The position numbers and the translations under genes were made by a program. Positions 5,450 through 21,254 of a DNA stretch of 64,000 nt are shown here, in pieces. This DNA comes from Bacteriovoracaceae bacterium (GTDB lineage Bacteria > Bdellovibrionota > Bacteriovoracia > Bacteriovoracales > Bacteriovoracaceae), in assembly GCA_947377285.1 (NCBI GenBank), contig CANCFT010000002.1, positions 62,001 through 126,000 of the forward strand, written 5' to 3'. Under the pieces are notes generated by a model. It was not told the origin of the DNA. It saw nothing but the letters and a program-made list of their open reading frames with translations, and ran no database searches. Every line of letters starts with the position of its first letter. The stretch's first letter is position 1.

Positions 5450-7400
5450 GTCTTAACGCATCTATGGGATTGAGTAATGAAGCTTTTCTTGCAGGGTAAA
5501 TCCCAAAAATAATACCAATTGAAGCTGAAAAGAAAAAAGATAATATAATAGAAGAAGGAGAAATAGAAGTACTCCATCCAGAAAAGGTATTAATTGCTAC
5601 TGTAATTAGCCAACCTAAAATGATTCCAATGAGACCACCGACAGCACTGACAACCACAGACTCAGCTAAAAACTGAGCAAGAATATCCCATCGCCTAGCT
5701 CCAATTGATTTTCTTAAACCAATCTCTCGGGTCCGCTCTGTCACAGAAACAAGCATAATATTCATGATTCCTATACCACCCACTAAGAGTGAAATGGCCG
5801 CAATAGAAGATAACAAAACTGACATGGTCTGAGAACTTTGTTGAACAGCTGCTTGAATATCGGCCATATTACGAATTTCAAAAGTACTTTTTTGTAAAGC
5901 TGGTGCAACTCGGTGTCGAATATTCATTAATTCGATAATTTTATCTTCTGCCAATTCCATTTTACTTGGGTCAGTAATTTCCAAATCAATGGAATCTACA
6001 TAATCTTTCCCAAGCAATCGATGCATGGCCGTTAAGACAGGAATAATAATCACATCATCTTGATCGCGAAAGCCATTGGCTCCTTTTTCAGGAAGTATGC
6101 CAATAATTTGAAAATTCACTTTATTTATTTTTATCATTTCGCCTAATGGATTTGTATTGCCAAAAATTTCTCTAACGACAGTTAATCCAATGACAGCAAC
6201 CCTAGCTCGTTTAAGGTTATCAGACTCTGTAAAAAATCGACCAATTTCTGGGGTAGCAGTATGAATAGGAGCATAATTAGCAGCACTCCCAACAATTTGA
6301 GTACTCCAGTTTTTATTTTGAAAGGCAACTTGGCCTCGGCCATTAACGTTTGGTGAATCATATTTAATATAATCGAGTTGGTCTTTTAAAAATTGTGCAT
6401 CTTCAATACTTAAGCGGGTCGTAGTTCCTGATTCTTGAGTCACTCCACCTACACGAACTGCTCCAGGTCTAAGTATAAGGAGATTAGATCCAAGGGAAGA
6501 GAGTTGAGTTTCAATTGCTTTCTGAGCTCCTTTTCCAATGGCCAGCATTGCAATAACTGCAGCAACTCCAATCAAGATACCTAACATTGATAAACCAGTA
6601 CGTACTTTATTGGCCGCTAAAGTTTTAAACCCTAAATTTAAATATTCAAAAGCTTCCATAAAAATATTTATTTTTTTTGAAATTGGCTTTATCAATTGAG
6701 AGTTAACAATTTTTTTCTTTTCTGGTAATGGGGATAAACGTTCATCAGACTGTACAATACCATCACGCATACGAATTAAACGCTTCGCTTGCTGGCCGAC
6801 TTCTTCCTCATGAGTAACAATGACAACTGTAATCCCTTGATCATTTAATTCTTTTAAAATTAAAAGAATTTCCTTTTCACTGATTGAATCTAAATTCCCT
6901 GTAGGCTCATCGGCAAAAATAACTTGTGGTTTATTAATCAAAGACCTTGCGATGGCCACTCTTTGTTGCTGGCCTCCCGAGAGTTCATTAGGTTTATGAA
7001 AACTTCTTTGCCCTAAACCAGTTCTCTCTAAAAGACTTACAGCATATGGTTCACCGTCTGTTTGTCTAGAATACAAAAGAGGTAATTTAACATTTTCCAG
7101 AGCACTCATTCTCGGCAGTAAATTAAATTGTTGAAAAATAAATCCTAAAGTCTCTCTTCTTAATATGGCCAAAGCATCTTCAGACAAATGAGAAACCTCT
7201 CTTTCATCAATTTTGTAAGAGCCATTTGTCGGAACATCTAACAAACCTAAAATATGCATTAGAGTTGATTTGCCAGAACCAGAAGGTCCCATAATAGCAA
7301 CGTAATCACCGTCCTCTATCGTAAGACTTATATCGACAAGAGCATTGACAATATTGTCGCCCATCTTATAAGTTTTGTAAATTTTAGATAAACTTAACAT
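5442..7400 (-). CDS. macB: MacB-type ABC exporter (ATPase fused to permease)
   Basis: A 652-residue protein with the full MacB layout. An N-terminal ATPase of about 230 residues has Walker [10 protein letters not shown] near 38-46, signature [14 protein letters not shown] and Walker [13 protein letters not shown]. It is followed by a first membrane helix (about 270-290), a large periplasmic domain, and three C-terminal membrane helices in a FtsX-like domain containing [15 protein letters not shown]. MacB works as a mechanotransmission pump that drives substrates from the periplasm through TolC rather than across the inner membrane. The gene starts directly after the macA stop codon and overlaps yaiI by 8 bp. 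Known MacB substrates include macrolides, lipoproteins and toxins; the one here is unknown. Confidence 0.95.
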
Positions 7401-8387
7401 TTATTTTCCACCACGAGACTTTGGGCTTCCCATTGGGCTAAATGGACTCGAAGAATTTGCTTTCTTATCCCCCACTTTAAACTGTTGTATCAAAATACTC
7501 TCACCCTCGCTTAATCCAGAAAGAATTTCTGTTTTCTTTCCATCTGTAATTCCGAGTGTAATTTCTTGTTCTTTTAGATTTTTTCTGTCGTTAGCATCGT
7601 TTGGATTCGCCATTTGAACAAAAGTTTTTCCATCGCTATTTTTAATAGCTTCAGTAGGTACAACAATAATATCTTTTTTATTTTGTACACTAAAAGTTAC
7701 ATTGGCAGTCATCCCACTTCGCATATAAGCAGGTGCAGTATTTGGAAGAACATCGACAATATATGTTGTTACGTTATTAACTGTTTTTGCATCATAGGCG
7801 ATCTGATCTACCTGAGCTTCTATAGTTTCTTCAGGGTAGGCATCTAAAATTATTTTTGCTTTTTGGCTTACTTTTATTTTCGCTATATCGGTTTCATCAA
7901 CTTGGGCCTTAACGGTCAATCGATCCGACATTACTAAGATCGCATCTTGAGTAGTAAATGTTTGACCTGACTCAATATTTTTTTGAATAATTGTCCCGTT
8001 AATAGCGGCAAGAACTGGAGTTGCTCGATACATAACTTCCCATTCTTTTAATTCTTGAGCACCTTTTGAACTAGCTGCATCTAACATTGCTGCTCTTTCT
8101 GTTGAACTCATCCAAGCTAGGATTTGACCTTTTTTAACTTTAGCTCCTTCAGCGACTAATACTTTTTCAATTCTTCCAGGAATAGGTGGCTTAATTTCAA
8201 CTTTATTTTCAGGTTGAATAATTCCTGTACTTAAAATTTGGACATTTATACTTCCTTTTTTAACTACATATTCTTTATAGACTATTGAGGTATCTACTTT
8301 ATTGGCGAAGAATTTATAACCTAAACCACCAATAATAAAAGTAGCACCCAAAATAATACTAATGGTTTTTTTCGAACTCAAATTCAT
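7401..8387 (-). CDS. macA: MacA-like periplasmic adaptor (HlyD family)
   Basis: A membrane-fusion protein of 328 residues linking MacB to TolC. It has one N-terminal membrane helix (about 10-27), a split biotinyl/lipoyl domain (KVEIKPPIPGRIEKVLVAEG, later AAINGTIIQKNIESGQ), a beta-barrel domain and a C-terminal membrane-proximal domain (EQEITLGITDGKKTEILSGL). The chosen ATG at 8387 forms an ATGA overlap with the tolC stop; a longer frame upstream would overlap tolC and has no support. The stretch between the two lipoyl halves is only about 30 residues, whereas typical MacA/AcrA adaptors have a long alpha-helical hairpin there. The tail is rich in Ser, Pro and Lys. Confidence 0.92.
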   Translation of the reverse strand: MNLSSKKTISIILGATFIIGGLGYKFFANKVDTSIVYKEYVVKKGSINVQILSTGIIQPENKVEIKPPIPGRIEKVLVAEGAKVKKGQILAWMSSTERAAMLDAASSKGAQELKEWEVMYRATPVLAAINGTIIQKNIESGQTFTTQDAILVMSDRLTVKAQVDETDIAKIKVSQKAKIILDAYPEETIEAQVDQIAYDAKTVNNVTTYIVDVLPNTAPAYMRSGMTANVTFSVQNKKDIIVVPTEAIKNSDGKTFVQMANPNDANDRKNLKEQEITLGITDGKKTEILSGLSEGESILIQQFKVGDKKANSSSPFSPMGSPKSRGGK

Positions 8388-14817: not shown

Positions 14818-14989
14818 AAATTCTCCTGTTTAATTAGTCATAACATTAATCATGGTCTTCTTTCTTAAAATGTCGAGAAAAGGGTTAAAATTTAAATTAA
14901 ATTGAGGTGAGTCATAATTAAAATCTATCTTTTATAATAATATCCTTTTACCTCTTCAATTGAACGTTTATCATTTAAGGATGAAGACT

Positions 14990-15454
14990 ATGCTCACTCT
15001 AACATTTTTAATTTTTCAAGCTTCTGAATTAAATGCCCAAAGCAAATACTCTGCTCCTAATTCTCTCAAGTTATTTCTAACTGATGGCTGCACCCAATTT
15101 ATTGATGGTCCACTTAATAATCCTAGTTTGTGGAAACATTGTTGTGTTGAGCATGATTTGCGCTATTGGTTTGGTGGTGATCAGGCGGATTTAGATAGAT
15201 CAGACCTACGCCTAAAAGTATGTGTACGCGATGTTGCAGGGGACACTTGGGCAAAAATTATTTATTCTGGAGTTAGGCTTGGTCATCACTCCCCTATCAA
15301 AAATAAGAGTCAGTGGGGCTGGGGTTGGGAAAATAAACGCCTCAATAATCCACTAGACCCAAGTGAGCAAAATTATGTTATTGAAGAAATTCGAAAACTT
15401 CCACTTGATTCCGATTTTCTAGAAAATTTTATTGAACTCAATTTTAAAAAATAA
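14990..15454 (+). CDS. Secreted phospholipase A2-like protein
   Basis: A 154-residue protein with signal peptide (LTLTFLIFQASELNA). The ATG at 14990 is favoured because TTAAGG ends 9 bp upstream; ATG at 14981 in the same frame abuts it too closely. The mature protein has KHCCVEHDLRYWFGG: a Cys-Cys pair with His-Asp, which is the signature of the phospholipase A2-like fold (catalytic His-Asp pair, disulfide Cys). Another Cys (KVCVRD) and CTQF before it could complete two disulfides. No obvious calcium loop of the classical YGCYCG type is present, so the enzymatic activity is inferred. It runs into arfB with a 2-bp gap. Confidence 0.6.
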   Translation: MLTLTFLIFQASELNAQSKYSAPNSLKLFLTDGCTQFIDGPLNNPSLWKHCCVEHDLRYWFGGDQADLDRSDLRLKVCVRDVAGDTWAKIIYSGVRLGHHSPIKNKSQWGWGWENKRLNNPLDPSEQNYVIEEIRKLPLDSDFLENFIELNFKK

Positions 15455-15859: not shown

Positions 15860-16957
15860 TTAACTTAACTGATTTATCACTTTCTCAATTTCTTGGTCTG
15901 TATTAAAAGCATGCGGGGAAAGCCTGATTCCAGGTCCACGTACAGCAAAGTTGCAACCTATTTCTTCTAACTTCTTAGTGCTATCAACTTTAGGAATAAA
16001 ATTGACTATTGAACTATGATTGTAATGAACATCAAAACCAAGATGTCTTAATCCAGCAGTGAGTTTTTTAGAAAGTCTAATGACTTCTGTTTCAATGACT
16101 TTGACTTTCGTTTTTAAAATCAAATCAACTGAAGCTCCAAGCGCTGTAATTTCTAAAACTTGTTTAGAGCCAGCTTCAAATTTCGAAGCATCTTTTTTGG
16201 GCATACACAATAAGTCGGTAGGATCATCGCAAGTTCCAAAAGTATAGGCCCCTACATTATGCGGCTTAATCAAATTCATATGTTTGATATCTAGAGCTAA
16301 AAAACCTACACCTACAGGAGAAGTTAGCCATTTATGACTTCCTCCTGCCACTGCATCTACACCCCATTCTTTCATTTGAAATGGATGTAGTCCGAATCCT
16401 TGCATAATATCAACAAAGAGAAAGATATTTTTTTCATTGGTAATTTTAGCAAGATTTTGTATATCGGTTTTTGAGCCCGTTAAAAATTGCACCCAAGATA
16501 TCGCCACAACTTTTGTTTTTGCAGTAATACTTTGAATTATTTTTTCAACAGGAGTTGTAAAATCTTTTTCTGATTCAACAATGACTAACTTAGCGCCTGT
16601 GCGTTTAGTTGCCTCTTGCCAAGGATATAAGTTTGAAGCGTATTCTTGGTCCCAAGTAATTACTTCATCTCCTTGATTTAGAGGGAAATGAAAACAAAGC
16701 TGGCTAATTGCGCTTGCAGTACTTTGGAAAAAAGCAACTTCATAGGCTTCGCAACCAATAAGTTTAGATAAAGAAGATCTAGAATGAAGTACATCATTCA
16801 TATAATCATGATCAGTAAAAAAACCTTCTTGGTAAAAGCGCTCTCCCCAATAAAGTATTTTATCACGCGCATCTTTTGAAATAGGAGCAAGACCTGCATT
16901 ATTCAAATGGATTATTTTTTGATTTTGATAAAAAGAATTTTTAAATTGATTTAACAT
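15860..16957 (-). CDS. Class V PLP enzyme, candidate C-S lyase (EgtE/OvoB-like role)
   Basis: A 365-residue fold-type I PLP enzyme of the aminotransferase class V family. The PLP lysine is in GGSHKWLTSPVGVGFL at about residues 202-217; the upstream VDIMQGFGLHPF region supplies the aspartate pairing with the pyridine nitrogen. Class V enzymes such as EgtE cleave the C-S bond of hercynylcysteine sulfoxide; the corresponding OvoB step releases the thiol from histidylcysteine sulfoxide. Its ATG overlaps the end of the OvoA-decarboxylase fusion gene by 7 bp, so the two proteins are almost certainly made together, and a C-S lyase job is the simplest reading. Selenocysteine lyase, kynureninase or isopenicillin-epimerase-like activities remain possible. 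Confidence 0.75.
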   Translation of the reverse strand: MLNQFKNSFYQNQKIIHLNNAGLAPISKDARDKILYWGERFYQEGFFTDHDYMNDVLHSRSSLSKLIGCEAYEVAFFQSTASAISQLCFHFPLNQGDEVITWDQEYASNLYPWQEATKRTGAKLVIVESEKDFTTPVEKIIQSITAKTKVVAISWVQFLTGSKTDIQNLAKITNEKNIFLFVDIMQGFGLHPFQMKEWGVDAVAGGSHKWLTSPVGVGFLALDIKHMNLIKPHNVGAYTFGTCDDPTDLLCMPKKDASKFEAGSKQVLEITALGASVDLILKTKVKVIETEVIRLSKKLTAGLRHLGFDVHYNHSSIVNFIPKVDSTKKLEEIGCNFAVRGPGIRLSPHAFNTDQEIEKVINQLS

Positions 16958-19900
16958 TCGCAGGCCATTTCATCAATTTCAATTAAAGCACTAAGTAATC
17001 TTTCATAGTGAACTCTGTAACCTAAAAGACAAACACGGATGGCCAAATGACCATCGAGCATACACGATGATAAAAACAATGTCCCTTTCGTATTAATTTT
17101 TTTCATCAACTCTTTGGTAGCTTCATCGCCTTTTTTATGGGCAAAAGCTTGGATAGTTAATTCGGGAGAAGAAACGACCACTAAGTCTTTATTCTTTTTT
17201 AATTCTTCACAAAGCCAACTACTCAATTTTAATTTTTCTTCTAGATTTAAAATAAAAGGTGCTATTCCTAATGTTTTAATCGGTAACCAAACTCTGAGTC
17301 CTCGGTAATCACGCGATAGCTCTGGCGAAATATCAGCGTAATCATGGTCTCCCATAGTAGGCTTTGGAGGCATATATGAATCGTCTGAAATATAATCAAA
17401 AGACATATTATTGCCATCTTTAACTAATAAGCATCCTGTACCATAAGGAAGTGAAAGTGCTTTATGTGGATCTAGAGCAATTGAATCAGCACGTTCAATT
17501 CCTTTTAAAAGCTCTCTGCCTTTTTCAGTTAACATAAAAAGAGCGCCATATGCTCCATCTGCATGTAACCACAGATTTTCTTTTTGTGCGATATCCGCCA
17601 ACGTATTTATGTTATCAACGCTTCCTGTTTTTGTTGTCCCGACAGTTCCCACCAAGAAAAAGGGCAAGAGACCATTTGATCTATCTTTTGAAATCATCTC
17701 ATGAAGTGAATGCGAATCAATTTTATATTGAGTTGCTTTTACTAAGCGTAGATTTTCTTTTTTAAAGCCGAGCATAACCCAAGCTTTGGCCACACAATGA
17801 TGGGCTTCAGTAGACATGTATCCAGTCACTTTAGAATAGTCATGGCCTGCAATTTTATTTAAGCGGGCCATGATTAATGCATTCATTGTGGCCGAACTAC
17901 CACCAGTAGTTAAATAACCTAGCGCTAATTTTTCATCGTAACCCATTAGACTTATAAACCATTTGATCACTTCTTGCTCTAAGGCCACAAGTCCTGGGGC
18001 CATCATATAATGCCCAGAAAATGGATTGAGTGTTTGAGAAATTAATTGAGCAGTATTCGAAATTGCATTCCCACCACCTGCAACATAGGCCAGAAATCCA
18101 GGATGACCTGGAAGTTGAGATAATGGGGCCATCTCATGAAAGATTAGATTAAGTAGTGTTTGATAATTTTCTGGGCGCTCTGGAAAATTTTTAGTCATTT
18201 GATAGGGCAAAATAAAATCTTTTTTTAATCCATTTGTATTTGGATCATGAGCAGCCCCCATTGGAGACATGTTTTCAAAATTTTTCATGTAGTCTAGAAC
18301 TTGAACTTGGGTTTGATCGAGAAGAGATTTCATTTCTTCTTGATTCATCTCAAGAGGTTGATCTATTTTTTTCCACCAGTCACTCCCCTTTTGAATTTGG
18401 TCTAAAACATTTTGGCGTCGAGGATGAATATATTCAGCTGATTTTACAATTTTAGTAGAACCATTATCCATACTACCATCTAAAGTAGCCGCAATTCGAA
18501 ATCCACTGTGTTGATTAAAATGAGGTCTAAAATGAAAGCGAGAGTATTGACTTGCTTCAGTCCCTGTACTGATGAATGATCCACCTAAAATCATTTGGTG
18601 TTTGCCATCAAAACAAGGCGTAGAAAAATCGTCATAGAGAGAGTGAATTTGAAATTGGGGTAACGGATTAAACTGGTCTTCAACCCAATGCCAAGTATTT
18701 CCAGATAAAACTTCATTTACGTTCTGAGGTGTCGACCAAATAAAGTTAAAATTTGATTTAAACTCACTTAGATTTTTATAGTCGCTATAGTGTTTCGTCT
18801 GTAAAACTTCATCAATATCTTTGTGTCTGACACAATCATATTCTGCTTCAGTTAATAATCTGTAATGAAGTTTAATTTTTGATTTTTTTTGATCTTCGCT
18901 ATTTTTCCAATTTGTATAGGCAACTGCCTCATGAAAATTGACTTCAACCGGCCAATTCCAAGGCATTGGGATTATCTCAAAAATTGTCCGGAGTTCATAT
19001 TCATGTGAGCCTTCAGGCCCAACACCACACCAAAAAGTAGGTCTTTTGGTGTTTCTAAATTTTCTCCAAAACAATCCTTCTTCTCTCCAGAAATTATCAT
19101 TGACATAAGCTCCACTTGAGACAAATTCAAAATATTCACGGTTAGTTATTTGGTATTTTGTATATTGAAAATCTTGAATTTTTACAATTCGTTCTCCATA
19201 TTCGTTATCCCAGCCGAATGATGGAGTCGATTCTGATTTTCCAATTTTAACAGTTTTGCCAGATTCTTTAACCCAAGAATTTTCTAAGACAGAATTATCA
19301 TTGCGGCTGGGATGCATTGGCGCCCAATATTTTGGTGTTTCTACAAACTCAATTGGCAATTCACGGATTAACACACTTGATGTTTCGAAATGAATTTTTT
19401 CATGCTCCATTCCCATCCATAATGCCCACCAAGGTGAATGCATAAGTGGTTTAGGGCCATTTCTTGCTCTATCTAAAAAATCTAAATCTGGATGAGTTTT
19501 AATTGTTTCAGTTACTAAACTGTAGACTATTTTTCGGTATGAATGAACTGCTTCAACATTTGGCCACTCCATTTCATTTTTACTCATATCATCCCAAGAC
19601 ATTTCATCAACACCCGTTTCTAAAACTTTTTCTAAATAAAGATTGATAGGGTTGGGATAAAATCCAGCAAGGCGTAATTTATTTAAATAAAGTACGGCCG
19701 GGTGTCCGTAATAAAAAATTAATGGATGTCGAAGTCCGTGATAGGGAGGGCGCTTATAAACGTCTTCAGTTTTTAAACCTTGAAATAATATTTCAGTTAA
19801 AGTCCAAGAATTATTAAAATAGTCGAGAACATCTTGGCGAGAACAAATTTCTAAATTAAGCAGTGGAAGTGCTACTACACATTGGCGATTTTGATCAAAC

Positions 19901-20028
19901 CCTGGACAATTTTCAGGAGCAAGCCCCGTCCACCATCTTTCACCAAAATGATTTTTCAACTCAGGTAAATATTTTTTTTCGGCGCGAGCTTTAGTAAGAT
20001 TTGGATTTCTAGTAATTGAAACAGTCAT
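16951..20028 (-). CDS. ovoA: OvoA-type sulfoxide synthase fused to a PLP decarboxylase
   Basis: A 1025-residue two-part enzyme. The ATG at 20028 has GGAG about 8 bp upstream. Residues 1-230 form the DinB-like domain with HX3HXE (H209, H213, E215) and a further His near 109, the non-haem iron ligands. Residues about 262-513 form the FGE-sulfatase/EgtB-type domain ending in GGSFIS and FHFRPHFNQHSGFRIA. Together they match 5-histidylcysteine sulfoxide synthase (OvoA), which couples histidine and cysteine with oxygen. Canonical OvoA then carries a methyltransferase; here residues about 555-1025 are a group II PLP decarboxylase (TTGGSSATMNAL, HADGAYG, DPHKALSLPYGTG with K856). The reading frame is uninterrupted, so this is a real fusion. 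The product may be a decarboxylated thiol-imidazole. Confidence 0.88.
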   Translation of the reverse strand: MTVSITRNPNLTKARAEKKYLPELKNHFGERWWTGLAPENCPGFDQNRQCVVALPLLNLEICSRQDVLDYFNNSWTLTEILFQGLKTEDVYKRPPYHGLRHPLIFYYGHPAVLYLNKLRLAGFYPNPINLYLEKVLETGVDEMSWDDMSKNEMEWPNVEAVHSYRKIVYSLVTETIKTHPDLDFLDRARNGPKPLMHSPWWALWMGMEHEKIHFETSSVLIRELPIEFVETPKYWAPMHPSRNDNSVLENSWVKESGKTVKIGKSESTPSFGWDNEYGERIVKIQDFQYTKYQITNREYFEFVSSGAYVNDNFWREEGLFWRKFRNTKRPTFWCGVGPEGSHEYELRTIFEIIPMPWNWPVEVNFHEAVAYTNWKNSEDQKKSKIKLHYRLLTEAEYDCVRHKDIDEVLQTKHYSDYKNLSEFKSNFNFIWSTPQNVNEVLSGNTWHWVEDQFNPLPQFQIHSLYDDFSTPCFDGKHQMILGGSFISTGTEASQYSRFHFRPHFNQHSGFRIAATLDGSMDNGSTKIVKSAEYIHPRRQNVLDQIQKGSDWWKKIDQPLEMNQEEMKSLLDQTQVQVLDYMKNFENMSPMGAAHDPNTNGLKKDFILPYQMTKNFPERPENYQTLLNLIFHEMAPLSQLPGHPGFLAYVAGGGNAISNTAQLISQTLNPFSGHYMMAPGLVALEQEVIKWFISLMGYDEKLALGYLTTGGSSATMNALIMARLNKIAGHDYSKVTGYMSTEAHHCVAKAWVMLGFKKENLRLVKATQYKIDSHSLHEMISKDRSNGLLPFFLVGTVGTTKTGSVDNINTLADIAQKENLWLHADGAYGALFMLTEKGRELLKGIERADSIALDPHKALSLPYGTGCLLVKDGNNMSFDYISDDSYMPPKPTMGDHDYADISPELSRDYRGLRVWLPIKTLGIAPFILNLEEKLKLSSWLCEELKKNKDLVVVSSPELTIQAFAHKKGDEATKELMKKINTKGTLFLSSCMLDGHLAIRVCLLGYRVHYERLLSALIEIDEMACEC

Positions 20029-20144
20029 AGGTTTTCTCCAACAATGATCCAATAATTATCAATCATTCCTAGCGATTTGTCATGGGTGACTTGCTCTAAA
20101 ACTCTACTTGTATAAGCATTGTTGACTAAAACATTCCAGATCTT

Positions 20145-20207: not shown

Positions 20208-21254
20208 ATGATAAACACTTCTGGATACGCTGCTTTTAAATCAAGCGGTCAACTTGCACCCTTTGAATTTAAAAGAAGAGAATTAAAACCAAATGATATC
20301 CTAATTGAGATTGATTTTTGTGGAGTTTGTCATTCTGATATTCACCAAGTCAAAAATGAATGGGGAAACGCCGAATACCCAATGGTTCCTGGCCATGAAA
20401 TAGTAGGTCATATTACTAAAATTGGCACTGCCGTAAAAAAATTTAGTGTCGGCGATCTTGCTGGAGTCGGTTGCCTCGTTGATTCATGCCGAACTTGCTC
20501 TAATTGCCAAGAAGGTTTTCAGCAATTTTGTTTAAATGGGTCTGTTGGTACCTATAATAGTTTAGAAAAAGATGGTGAGACCCGAACCTTTGGTGGTTAT
20601 TCAAAATGTATTGTCGTCGATCAAGATTTTGCCTTAATCATCCCTAAAAATTTAGACTTAAAAACGGTAGCCCCTCTATTATGTGCAGGAATTACAACTT
20701 ATTCTCCCCTTCGTCATTGGGGAGTTGGCCCAGGCCAAAAAGTTGGTGTCGTGGGTCTTGGTGGACTTGGACATATGGCCGTAAAATTTGCTCATTCCTT
20801 TGGAGCTCATGTCACAGTTTTTACACGTTCTGAAAATAAAAAAGCTGATGCACTAAAACTAGGTGCAGACGAAGTTGCACTAACTAATGACCCTCAAAAA
20901 GTTCTCGCAGATCACGCTGGAAAATTTGATTTTATTCTAGATACTGTTTCAGCACCCCATGATCTCAATCTTTATCTGCAACTACTTAAACGCGATGGAA
21001 AAATGGTCTTAGTTGGCCTGCCAGAAATTCCACCTAATATTGAAGTGGGTAATCTTATTTTTGGAAGAAAAACTTTAGCAGGCTCACTTATCGGTGGAAT
21101 CCCAGAAACTCAAGAGATGCTATATTACTGTGGAGTAAATAATATTGGATGCGATATTGAATTAATTCATCCAAGTAAGATCAATGTAGCTTTTGAAAGA
21201 ACTCTTAATAGTGATGTGAAATACCGTTTTGTTTTAGATATGAAAGCTATTTAA
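20208..21254 (+). CDS. Zinc-dependent NADP(H) alcohol dehydrogenase (YahK/cinnamyl-alcohol type)
   Basis: A 348-residue medium-chain dehydrogenase. Catalytic zinc ligands are visible in CGVCHSDIH near 38-46 and GHEIVG near 63; the structural zinc site is the four-Cys group CRTCSNCQEGFQQFC near 95-109. The cofactor fold has GLGGLGHMAVKFA near 181-193, and the following TVFTRS, without an acidic residue at the strand end, favours NADPH. It closely resembles YahK and cinnamyl alcohol dehydrogenase-like aldehyde reductases, which reduce a wide range of aldehydes in the cytoplasm. It has its own promoter and a strong AAGGAG site, is divergent from the ovoA fusion gene, and overlaps the AlkD-like gene tail to tail by 8 bp. 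Confidence 0.92.
   Translation: MINTSGYAAFKSSGQLAPFEFKRRELKPNDILIEIDFCGVCHSDIHQVKNEWGNAEYPMVPGHEIVGHITKIGTAVKKFSVGDLAGVGCLVDSCRTCSNCQEGFQQFCLNGSVGTYNSLEKDGETRTFGGYSKCIVVDQDFALIIPKNLDLKTVAPLLCAGITTYSPLRHWGVGPGQKVGVVGLGGLGHMAVKFAHSFGAHVTVFTRSENKKADALKLGADEVALTNDPQKVLADHAGKFDFILDTVSAPHDLNLYLQLLKRDGKMVLVGLPEIPPNIEVGNLIFGRKTLAGSLIGGIPETQEMLYYCGVNNIGCDIELIHPSKINVAFERTLNSDVKYRFVLDMKAI

Follow-up and report, generated by a model that had tools for sequence, protein, structure and literature searches.

Only a few small imidazole thiols are known, ergothioneine and ovothiol among them, and they have been studied as antioxidants; to our knowledge, none of the known ergothioneine and ovothiol routes leads to a thiol amine. 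OvoA is a bifunctional enzyme, a 5-histidylcysteine sulfoxide synthase and a mercaptohistidine N-methyltransferase, and OvoB of Erwinia presumably belongs to an aspartate-aminotransferase-like PLP family, different from the class V family of the second gene described here. The locus under study lies in a window of 64,000 nt, the whole stretch of DNA analysed (contig CANCFT010000002.1 of Bacteriovoracaceae bacterium GCA_947377285.1, an assembly with a completeness of 92.75%), within which all positions are counted. It consists of gene A, in which a group II PLP decarboxylase stands where OvoA has its C-terminal methyltransferase, and gene B, which encodes a PLP enzyme of class V (Table 1). With a decarboxylase in place of the methyl-transferring half of OvoA, a small histamine-related sulfur compound is probably made. 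Specifically, we assign a probability of about 0.6 to a pathway in which the two genes yield a decarboxylated thiohistidine and which would run from histidine and cysteine through histidylcysteine sulfoxide and thiohistidine to thiohistamine.

Table 1. Positions of the two genes, their domains and selected residues within the 64,000-nt window.
Feature	Position	Strand	Remarks
Gene A, OvoA-type sulfoxide synthase and group II PLP decarboxylase fusion	16951..20028	-	1025 aa
5-Histidylcysteine sulfoxide synthase domain	18493..19848	-	TIGR04344 match, aa 61-512 (ATG form)
HX3HXE motif, H209/H213/E215	19384..19404	-	Aligned with 8khq; invariant in 22/22 fusions
Y465 in YDDFSTP	18634..18636	-	Aligned with Y406 of OvoA 8khq; invariant in 22/22 fusions
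Decarboxylase half of gene A, aa 526-1025	16954..18453	-	PF00282 match 17140-18198
H743, PLP-stacking His	17800..17802	-	Invariant in 22/22 fusions
D824, Asp	17557..17559	-	Invariant in 22/22 fusions
K856 in DPHK, PLP-binding Lys	17461..17463	-	Invariant in 22/22 fusions
Y885, catalytic loop	17374..17376	-	Aligned with Tyr of 4obu; invariant in 22/22 fusions
S905	17314..17316	-	Invariant in 22/22 fusions; Ser in human histidine decarboxylase
Overlap of gene A and gene B frames	16951..16957	-	7 bp
Gene B, proposed C-S lyase of class V PLP type	15860..16957	-	365 aa; linkage, profile matches, SufS-like fold
Y106 of gene B, PLP-stacking position	16640..16642	-	EgtE/Egt2 have Tyr here, SufS has His
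K209 of gene B, PLP Lys	16331..16333	-	Invariant in 24/24 rows
R345 of gene B (RLSPHAFN), Arg position for the substrate carboxylate	15923..15925	-	Invariant in 24/24 rows

Gene A opens with an ATG at 20028, with GGAG just upstream, and closes with a stop codon at 16953-16951; its longest in-frame start, a TTG at 20052, is a possible alternative. Gene B runs from an ATG at 16957 to a stop at 15860, and the short overlap of its start with the end of gene A, claimed in an earlier note on this DNA, was borne out by the shared bases. The synthase domain is followed by a match to Pyridoxal_deC (PF00282) of 178.5 bits (gathering cut-off 27), and the profile search reported no methyltransferase family in gene A, TIGR04345 included. 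The same note had assigned condensation, C-S cleavage and decarboxylation to this pair of genes; at the gene level, an OvoA-type synthase with a decarboxylase replacing the methyltransferase is supported. The predicted model of the fused protein was of moderate quality only (pLDDT 73, pTM 0.54).

The synthase half matched ovoA_Nterm (TIGR04344) with 526.9 bits against a curated cut-off of 400, and its nearest solved structure was OvoA 8khq (324 bits), with EgtB-IV structures at 305 bits. It shares with 8khq the HX3HXE motif, which we take to be the metal-binding (iron) motif of sulfoxide synthases, the equivalent of Y406, presumably the active-site Tyr, and the motifs DEMSWDD and YDDFSTP, whereas EgtB-IV 8vih, although similar in overall fold, has YED.SAP and no DEMSWDD. 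EgtB-IV, moreover, acts on hercynine, for which EgtD is needed, and a search of this genome with EgtD (PF10017) gave 0 matches. In a tree of 48 rows picked by hand from those available, the synthase halves of 14 fusions formed one clade (SH-aLRT 100) among OvoAs that mostly have the long, methyltransferase-bearing form; the row closest to the clade, from genome G166, matched TIGR04345 at 229 bits. The PLP decarboxylase has apparently replaced the ancestral N-methyltransferase half of OvoA a single time.

Searches for the missing half elsewhere gave the same picture. The best match to OvoA_Cterm (TIGR04345) in this genome reached 34 bits (cut-off 170), and none of the 23 other fusion genomes had a match at E<=1e-15. 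As far as TIGR04345 and EgtD (PF10017) are concerned, the earlier statement that no methyltransferase lies nearby extends to the whole assembled genome, and no OvoM-like methyltransferase that would speak against the two-gene reading was found elsewhere in this genome or in the 23 others. EgtD was present in 5 of the 24 fusion genomes and absent from 19, which, together with its absence here, indicates that ergothioneine is not the product.

The closest solved structure to the decarboxylase half was the tryptophan decarboxylase 4obu of Ruminococcus gnavus (199 bits). As in 4obu and the group II aromatic and histidine decarboxylases, the PF00282 domain, the PLP Lys, the His, the Asp and the loop Tyr are retained, but in gene A the decarboxylase is fused behind a sulfoxide synthase. 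The position of S905 is occupied by Ser in human histidine decarboxylase 4e1o, by Gly in aromatic amino acid decarboxylases and by Thr in 4obu; since the last is a tryptophan decarboxylase, Ser905 is weak evidence on the substrate. This assignment follows the PDB sequences, to which the wording on Ser354 of histidine decarboxylase in a passage of PMC10570526 reads opposite.

Gene B matched Aminotran_5 (PF00266) with 142.9 bits and fell below the curated cut-offs of both the EgtE model TIGR04343 (56.5 bits, cut-off 400) and the SufS model TIGR01979 (121.6 bits, cut-off 475), so that the close similarity to a cysteine desulfurase that would have told against the earlier note did not appear. Its predicted structure has a SufS-like fold (pLDDT 89, Z about 40), and the structural neighbours listed were cysteine desulfurases. 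The GHHC loop with the catalytic Cys and the SufS His were both absent from the aligned gene B rows and present in L001, a SufS-like protein of the same genome; the candidate role of cysteine desulfurase was rejected on these missing residues. Like EgtE/Egt2, gene B is a class V PLP enzyme with a stacking Tyr and equivalents of the Asp, Gln, Lys and Arg (Y106, D183, Q186, K209 and R345, matched to MsEgtE by motif and not by superposition on EgtE) and it carries RxSPHxFN. R345 corresponds by motif to Arg348, one of the MsEgtE residues named in PMC10805701. Tyr106 is replaced by Phe in row L184 and also occurs in stand-alone relatives of gene B that lack OvoA. The differences from EgtE/Egt2 lie in a score far below the EgtE cut-off, a genome without EgtD and a partner that is an OvoA-type fusion.

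Fusion-linked copies of gene B formed one clade with a support of 100/99, in a tree that contained four very long rows of own-genome paralogues (one only 31% filled) and whose bootstrap had not converged. L006 and L008 (no row) and L050, L051 and L146 (<300 aa) were left out. None of the EgtE references taken from six other genomes scored above the EgtE cut-off, and the tree is therefore without a certified EgtE.

Of 368 genomes surveyed in the phylum Bdellovibrionota, 24 carry the fusion, among them all 14 of the genus of the window, and gene B adjoins it in every one of the 24. Bdellovibrio sp. qaytius (record CP025734) is an isolate that bears the fusion. Given this recurrence, the fusion is neither a product of chance nor of assembly. 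Across 18 regions compared, gene A and gene B were the only families common to all; a third pathway gene was rejected, as beyond the two genes and antisense frames inside them nothing was common to the genus and other lineages. Relatives of gene B (E<=1e-45) were also found in 26 genomes of the phylum with no OvoA hit, in one of which (G208) the locus is cut at the contig edge and the upstream gene is not visible. The class V family is thus not an exclusive partner of sulfoxide synthases, and EgtD, present in 1 of the 26, was rejected as the explanation for these stand-alone copies; the family must have another role somewhere and by itself does not prove the role of gene B. Three other genomes, of which two have EgtD, carry a member of the same family directly after a short OvoA-related synthase. 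An Rfam search of one broken locus (L074) gave no match.

The interpretation in the earlier note is upheld in part: the linkage, the separate clade, the EgtE-like residues and the lack of desulfurase residues favour its coupled C-S lyase, while gene B is not an EgtE by the curated model and has relatives without OvoA in those 26 genomes. Gene B is best read as the C-S lyase of the pair. The family assignment, the motifs and the alignments suggest that the N-terminal half of gene A acts as a mononuclear iron enzyme of OvoA type, which would use O2 to couple cysteine with the imidazole ring of histidine and so form histidylcysteine sulfoxide. Gene B, translated from its overlapping start, would then carry out a beta-elimination on the cysteine side, releasing thiohistidine, pyruvate and ammonia, as its linkage, clade and active-site residues suggest. 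Finally, the C-terminal half of gene A may remove the carboxylate to yield a small thiol amine, 5-thiohistamine (4-mercaptohistamine), with both the reaction and the ring position being predicted.

The same genes could also act in another order: the decarboxylase might convert histidine to histamine at the outset, or might take the histidine end of the sulfoxide as its substrate, with the lyase as the final enzyme, and the product would still be thiohistamine. Fusion of the decarboxylase to the synthase instead of the lyase favours such early action, or channelling, and S905 agrees with human histidine decarboxylase; however, the OvoA-type motifs match an enzyme whose structure contains bound histidine (8khq), and sequence alone settles no order of steps, so that we consider this order unlikely. 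Improbable in our estimation is a different chemistry of the decarboxylase half, such as removal of the carboxylate from the cysteine part of the sulfoxide or aldehyde formation, with a product other than simple thiohistamine. The substrate is not readable from sequence and the group II fold takes in aldehyde synthases such as 6eei, but Y885 is Tyr in all 22 fusions and aligns with Phe in that phenylacetaldehyde synthase, and without the cysteine carboxylate the conserved Arg of the lyase would lose its expected ligand.

Two further readings concern the partners of the decarboxylase. That gene B is a desulfurase-like or transaminase enzyme, with the C-S lyase encoded elsewhere, would agree with its top named models being SufS-type and with the relatives that occur without OvoA, but it becomes very improbable in view of the absent SufS-type Cys loop and His and of the linkage to the fusion in 24/24 genomes as one clade. 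An ergothioneine pathway, with an EgtB-IV-like synthase half acting on hercynine, seems scarcely credible: the EgtB-IV structures score near OvoA and come first by fold, and a minority of the fusion genomes do have EgtD, but the reading was rejected on the distribution of EgtD and on motifs of OvoA rather than EgtB-IV type. Quaternary amines such as hercynine, furthermore, form no PLP aldimine, which the decarboxylase half requires.

In the open-licence literature, neither a description of a thiohistamine pathway or an OvoA-decarboxylase fusion nor a report of ovothiol chemistry in the Bdellovibrio-like lineage was found. Passages of PMC7653990 mention mercaptohistamine only in a reference to the acid dissociation of 2-mercaptohistamine, unrelated to the pathway.

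On the genomic evidence, we see an even chance that Bdellovibrio-like bacteria make 5-thiohistamine, an apparently undescribed thiol that would correspond to the decarboxylated and unmethylated core of ovothiol, by way of a one-time domain swap in OvoA. A known bifunctional enzyme has here exchanged its tailoring half, which predicts a specific and easily assayed product. The host lineage includes predatory bacteria, and a thiol amine could buffer redox state, bind metals or serve as a building block.

In the window, gene A encodes an OvoA-type sulfoxide synthase fused to a group II pyridoxal phosphate (PLP) decarboxylase, with matches to ovoA_Nterm TIGR04344 (526.9 bits, cut-off 400) and then Pyridoxal_deC PF00282 (178.5 bits, cut-off 27). 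Gene B, the proposed C-S lyase partner, is a class V PLP enzyme of the Aminotran_5 family (142.9 bits), and the overlap of its start with the end of gene A described in the earlier note was recovered as seven shared bases, 16951-16957. Divergently from gene A runs a zinc alcohol dehydrogenase gene, a neighbour not common to the other lineages in the 18 regions compared, where the gene A and gene B families were the only ones common to all. A nearby small protein without a Pfam match carries CCVEHDLRY, which we take to resemble the phospholipase A2 active-site motif.

Features of the window around the fusion gene
Feature	Positions	Strand	Length
Gene A	20028-16951	minus	1025 aa, counted from ATG
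Gene B	16957-15860	minus	365 aa
Small protein with CCVEHDLRY	14960-15454	plus	
Zinc alcohol dehydrogenase	20208-21254	plus	

The fusion was found in 24 of 368 Bdellovibrionota genomes. Every one of the 14 genomes in the window's genus has it, as do nine in family f6 and one in f21; it is divided between contigs in G010 and interrupted in G009. All 24 have gene B after the fusion on one contig (cut by the contig end in G004 and G006), a co-occurrence of the two genes across related genomes. In G009 (L074:5420-10075), the fusion gene is broken by a ~1.5 kb insert and further split, with gene B intact; the insert holds a frame on the opposite strand (6421-7737), transposase-like as judged by eye. 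A scan of genome contigs, which rests on six peptide patterns and may miss remote fusions, gave 75 loci encoding a relative; 18 of them matched across both halves, and one more (L057) was cut by its contig. The titles of these 19 were Bacteriovorax, Bacteriovoracaceae, Bdellovibrio, Pseudobdellovibrio, Bdellovibrionales or Bdellovibrionaceae only. Matches in other phyla end at about residue 550, and one in Silvanigrella (L073, Bdellovibrionota) reaches 614, cut by its contig. The fusion, a variant of the ovothiol pathway, is real and conserved and, within the searches made, confined to Bdellovibrionota.

Among 48 synthase domains placed in a tree, those of 14 fusions formed one clade (SH-aLRT 100) inside the OvoAs, the majority of which are long and carry the methyltransferase half. 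Closest to this clade from outside was an OvoA of the same phylum (G166, support 84), with a TIGR04345 (OvoA_Cterm) score of 229 bits for its methyltransferase half; the simplest reading is that methyltransferase was exchanged for decarboxylase once. A search of the window's genome with TIGR04345 (METHYLTRANSFERASE) gave nothing over the cut-off (best 34 bits), and the remaining 23 fusion genomes had no match at E≤1e-15, extending genome-wide the claim that an OvoA-type methyltransferase is missing; one of another family is possible.

The solved structure nearest to the synthase half is OvoA 8khq (324 bits), followed by EgtB-IV 8vih (305 bits). In the 8khq alignment HX3HXE is kept and Y465 aligns with Y406. 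Two stretches distinguish 8khq (DEMSWDD, YDDFSTP) from two EgtB-IV sequences (DPENAEE or DPENAEQ, YED.SAP); DEMSWDD and YDDFS[TV]P occur in all 21 fusion loci examined and likewise in the window. Since EgtD (PF10017), the ergothioneine-pathway methyltransferase, is missing from the window's genome and from 19 of the 24 fusion genomes, hercynine is not the general substrate of fusion synthases. Three fusion genomes of the window's genus carry an EgtD gene (G001:C50, G004:C100, G011:C62), and each of these contigs has a weak sulfoxide-synthase-like match close to that gene; some of these bacteria may therefore make ergothioneine in addition.

The decarboxylase half is nearest to R. gnavus tryptophan decarboxylase 4obu (199 bits), and K856, H743, D824, Y885 and S905 are invariant in 22/22 fusions. 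At the Y885 position 4obu has Tyr and the phenylacetaldehyde synthase 6eei Phe; in this enzyme class, the loop Tyr accompanies decarboxylation and Phe aldehyde formation. The S905 position is Ser in human histidine decarboxylase 4e1o and, among the alignments listed, Gly in four DOPA or aromatic decarboxylases; because it is Thr in 4obu, S905 no more than hints at an imidazole substrate. Actinophytocola xanthii (L085:7728-14411) has a methyltransferase-type OvoA, then a 664-aa frame that matches no Pfam family, then a free-standing group II decarboxylase with 38.6% identity to the fused one and the stretch ELSR.YRGLRVW in common, possibly an independent OvoA-decarboxylase partnership.

Gene B scored 56.5 bits with the curated EgtE model (cut-off 400) and 121.6 bits with that of SufS (cut-off 475); the close similarity to a cysteine desulfurase named earlier as counting against a lyase did not appear. 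Its predicted model (pLDDT 89) has a SufS-type fold and superposes on 8kg1 with Z 40.2 and rmsd 2.7 (356 aligned), and a 24-row gene B profile gave nearly full-length matches to PvdN and to a cysteine/cystine C-S lyase. In MsEgtE, Tyr106 stacks PLP and Arg348 recognizes the substrate carboxylate (PMC10805701). Gene B has a Tyr106 where SufS has the first His of EHH (presumably H121 in B. subtilis SufS), and the Arg345 of its RLSPHAFN stretch is invariant; EHH and GHHC, both present in the same genome's SufS-like L001, are missing. L184 has Phe at Tyr106; stand-alone relatives also carry the Tyr, which is therefore a mark of the gene B family, not of the OvoA-linked clade alone.

The 22 fusion-linked gene B rows and L194 (a G208 locus with its upstream gene cut off) form one clade (100/99), separate from the f6 stand-alone clade. 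In three f20 genomes, a gene B relative comes after a short synthase that has neither a methyltransferase nor a decarboxylase half; EgtD occurs in two of the three and EgtB-IV-like YEDYSAP in L165 (the motif search returned none in L164 and L166), so members of the family probably serve ergothioneine there, and thiohistidine in fusion genomes. The family has at least one other role, since 26 genomes hold a relative (E≤1e-45) with no OvoA match (E≤1e-60) and only G243 among them has EgtD. The C-S lyase claim of the earlier note is supported by the 24/24 pairing and the separate clade; the EgtE score and these OvoA-less relatives tell against it. Two long-form OvoA genes, at L091:6649-10130 and L200:3288-7047, each adjoin a class V PLP gene more distant from gene B (24-27% identity), which suggests that OvoA has class V lyase partners in other lineages as well.

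From these sequence comparisons, a reaction is proposed for each part: the synthase half would couple histidine and cysteine, gene B would free the imidazole-bound sulfur, and thiohistamine would be the product of the decarboxylase half. The sulfenic acid remaining after the lyase step would be reduced by cellular thiols, as is that of EgtE. Each PLP step requires a free primary amine, in keeping with the missing EgtD-type trimethylation. No description of this variant of the ovothiol pathway was found in the open-licence literature searched, and the thiohistamine reading offers a clear test.
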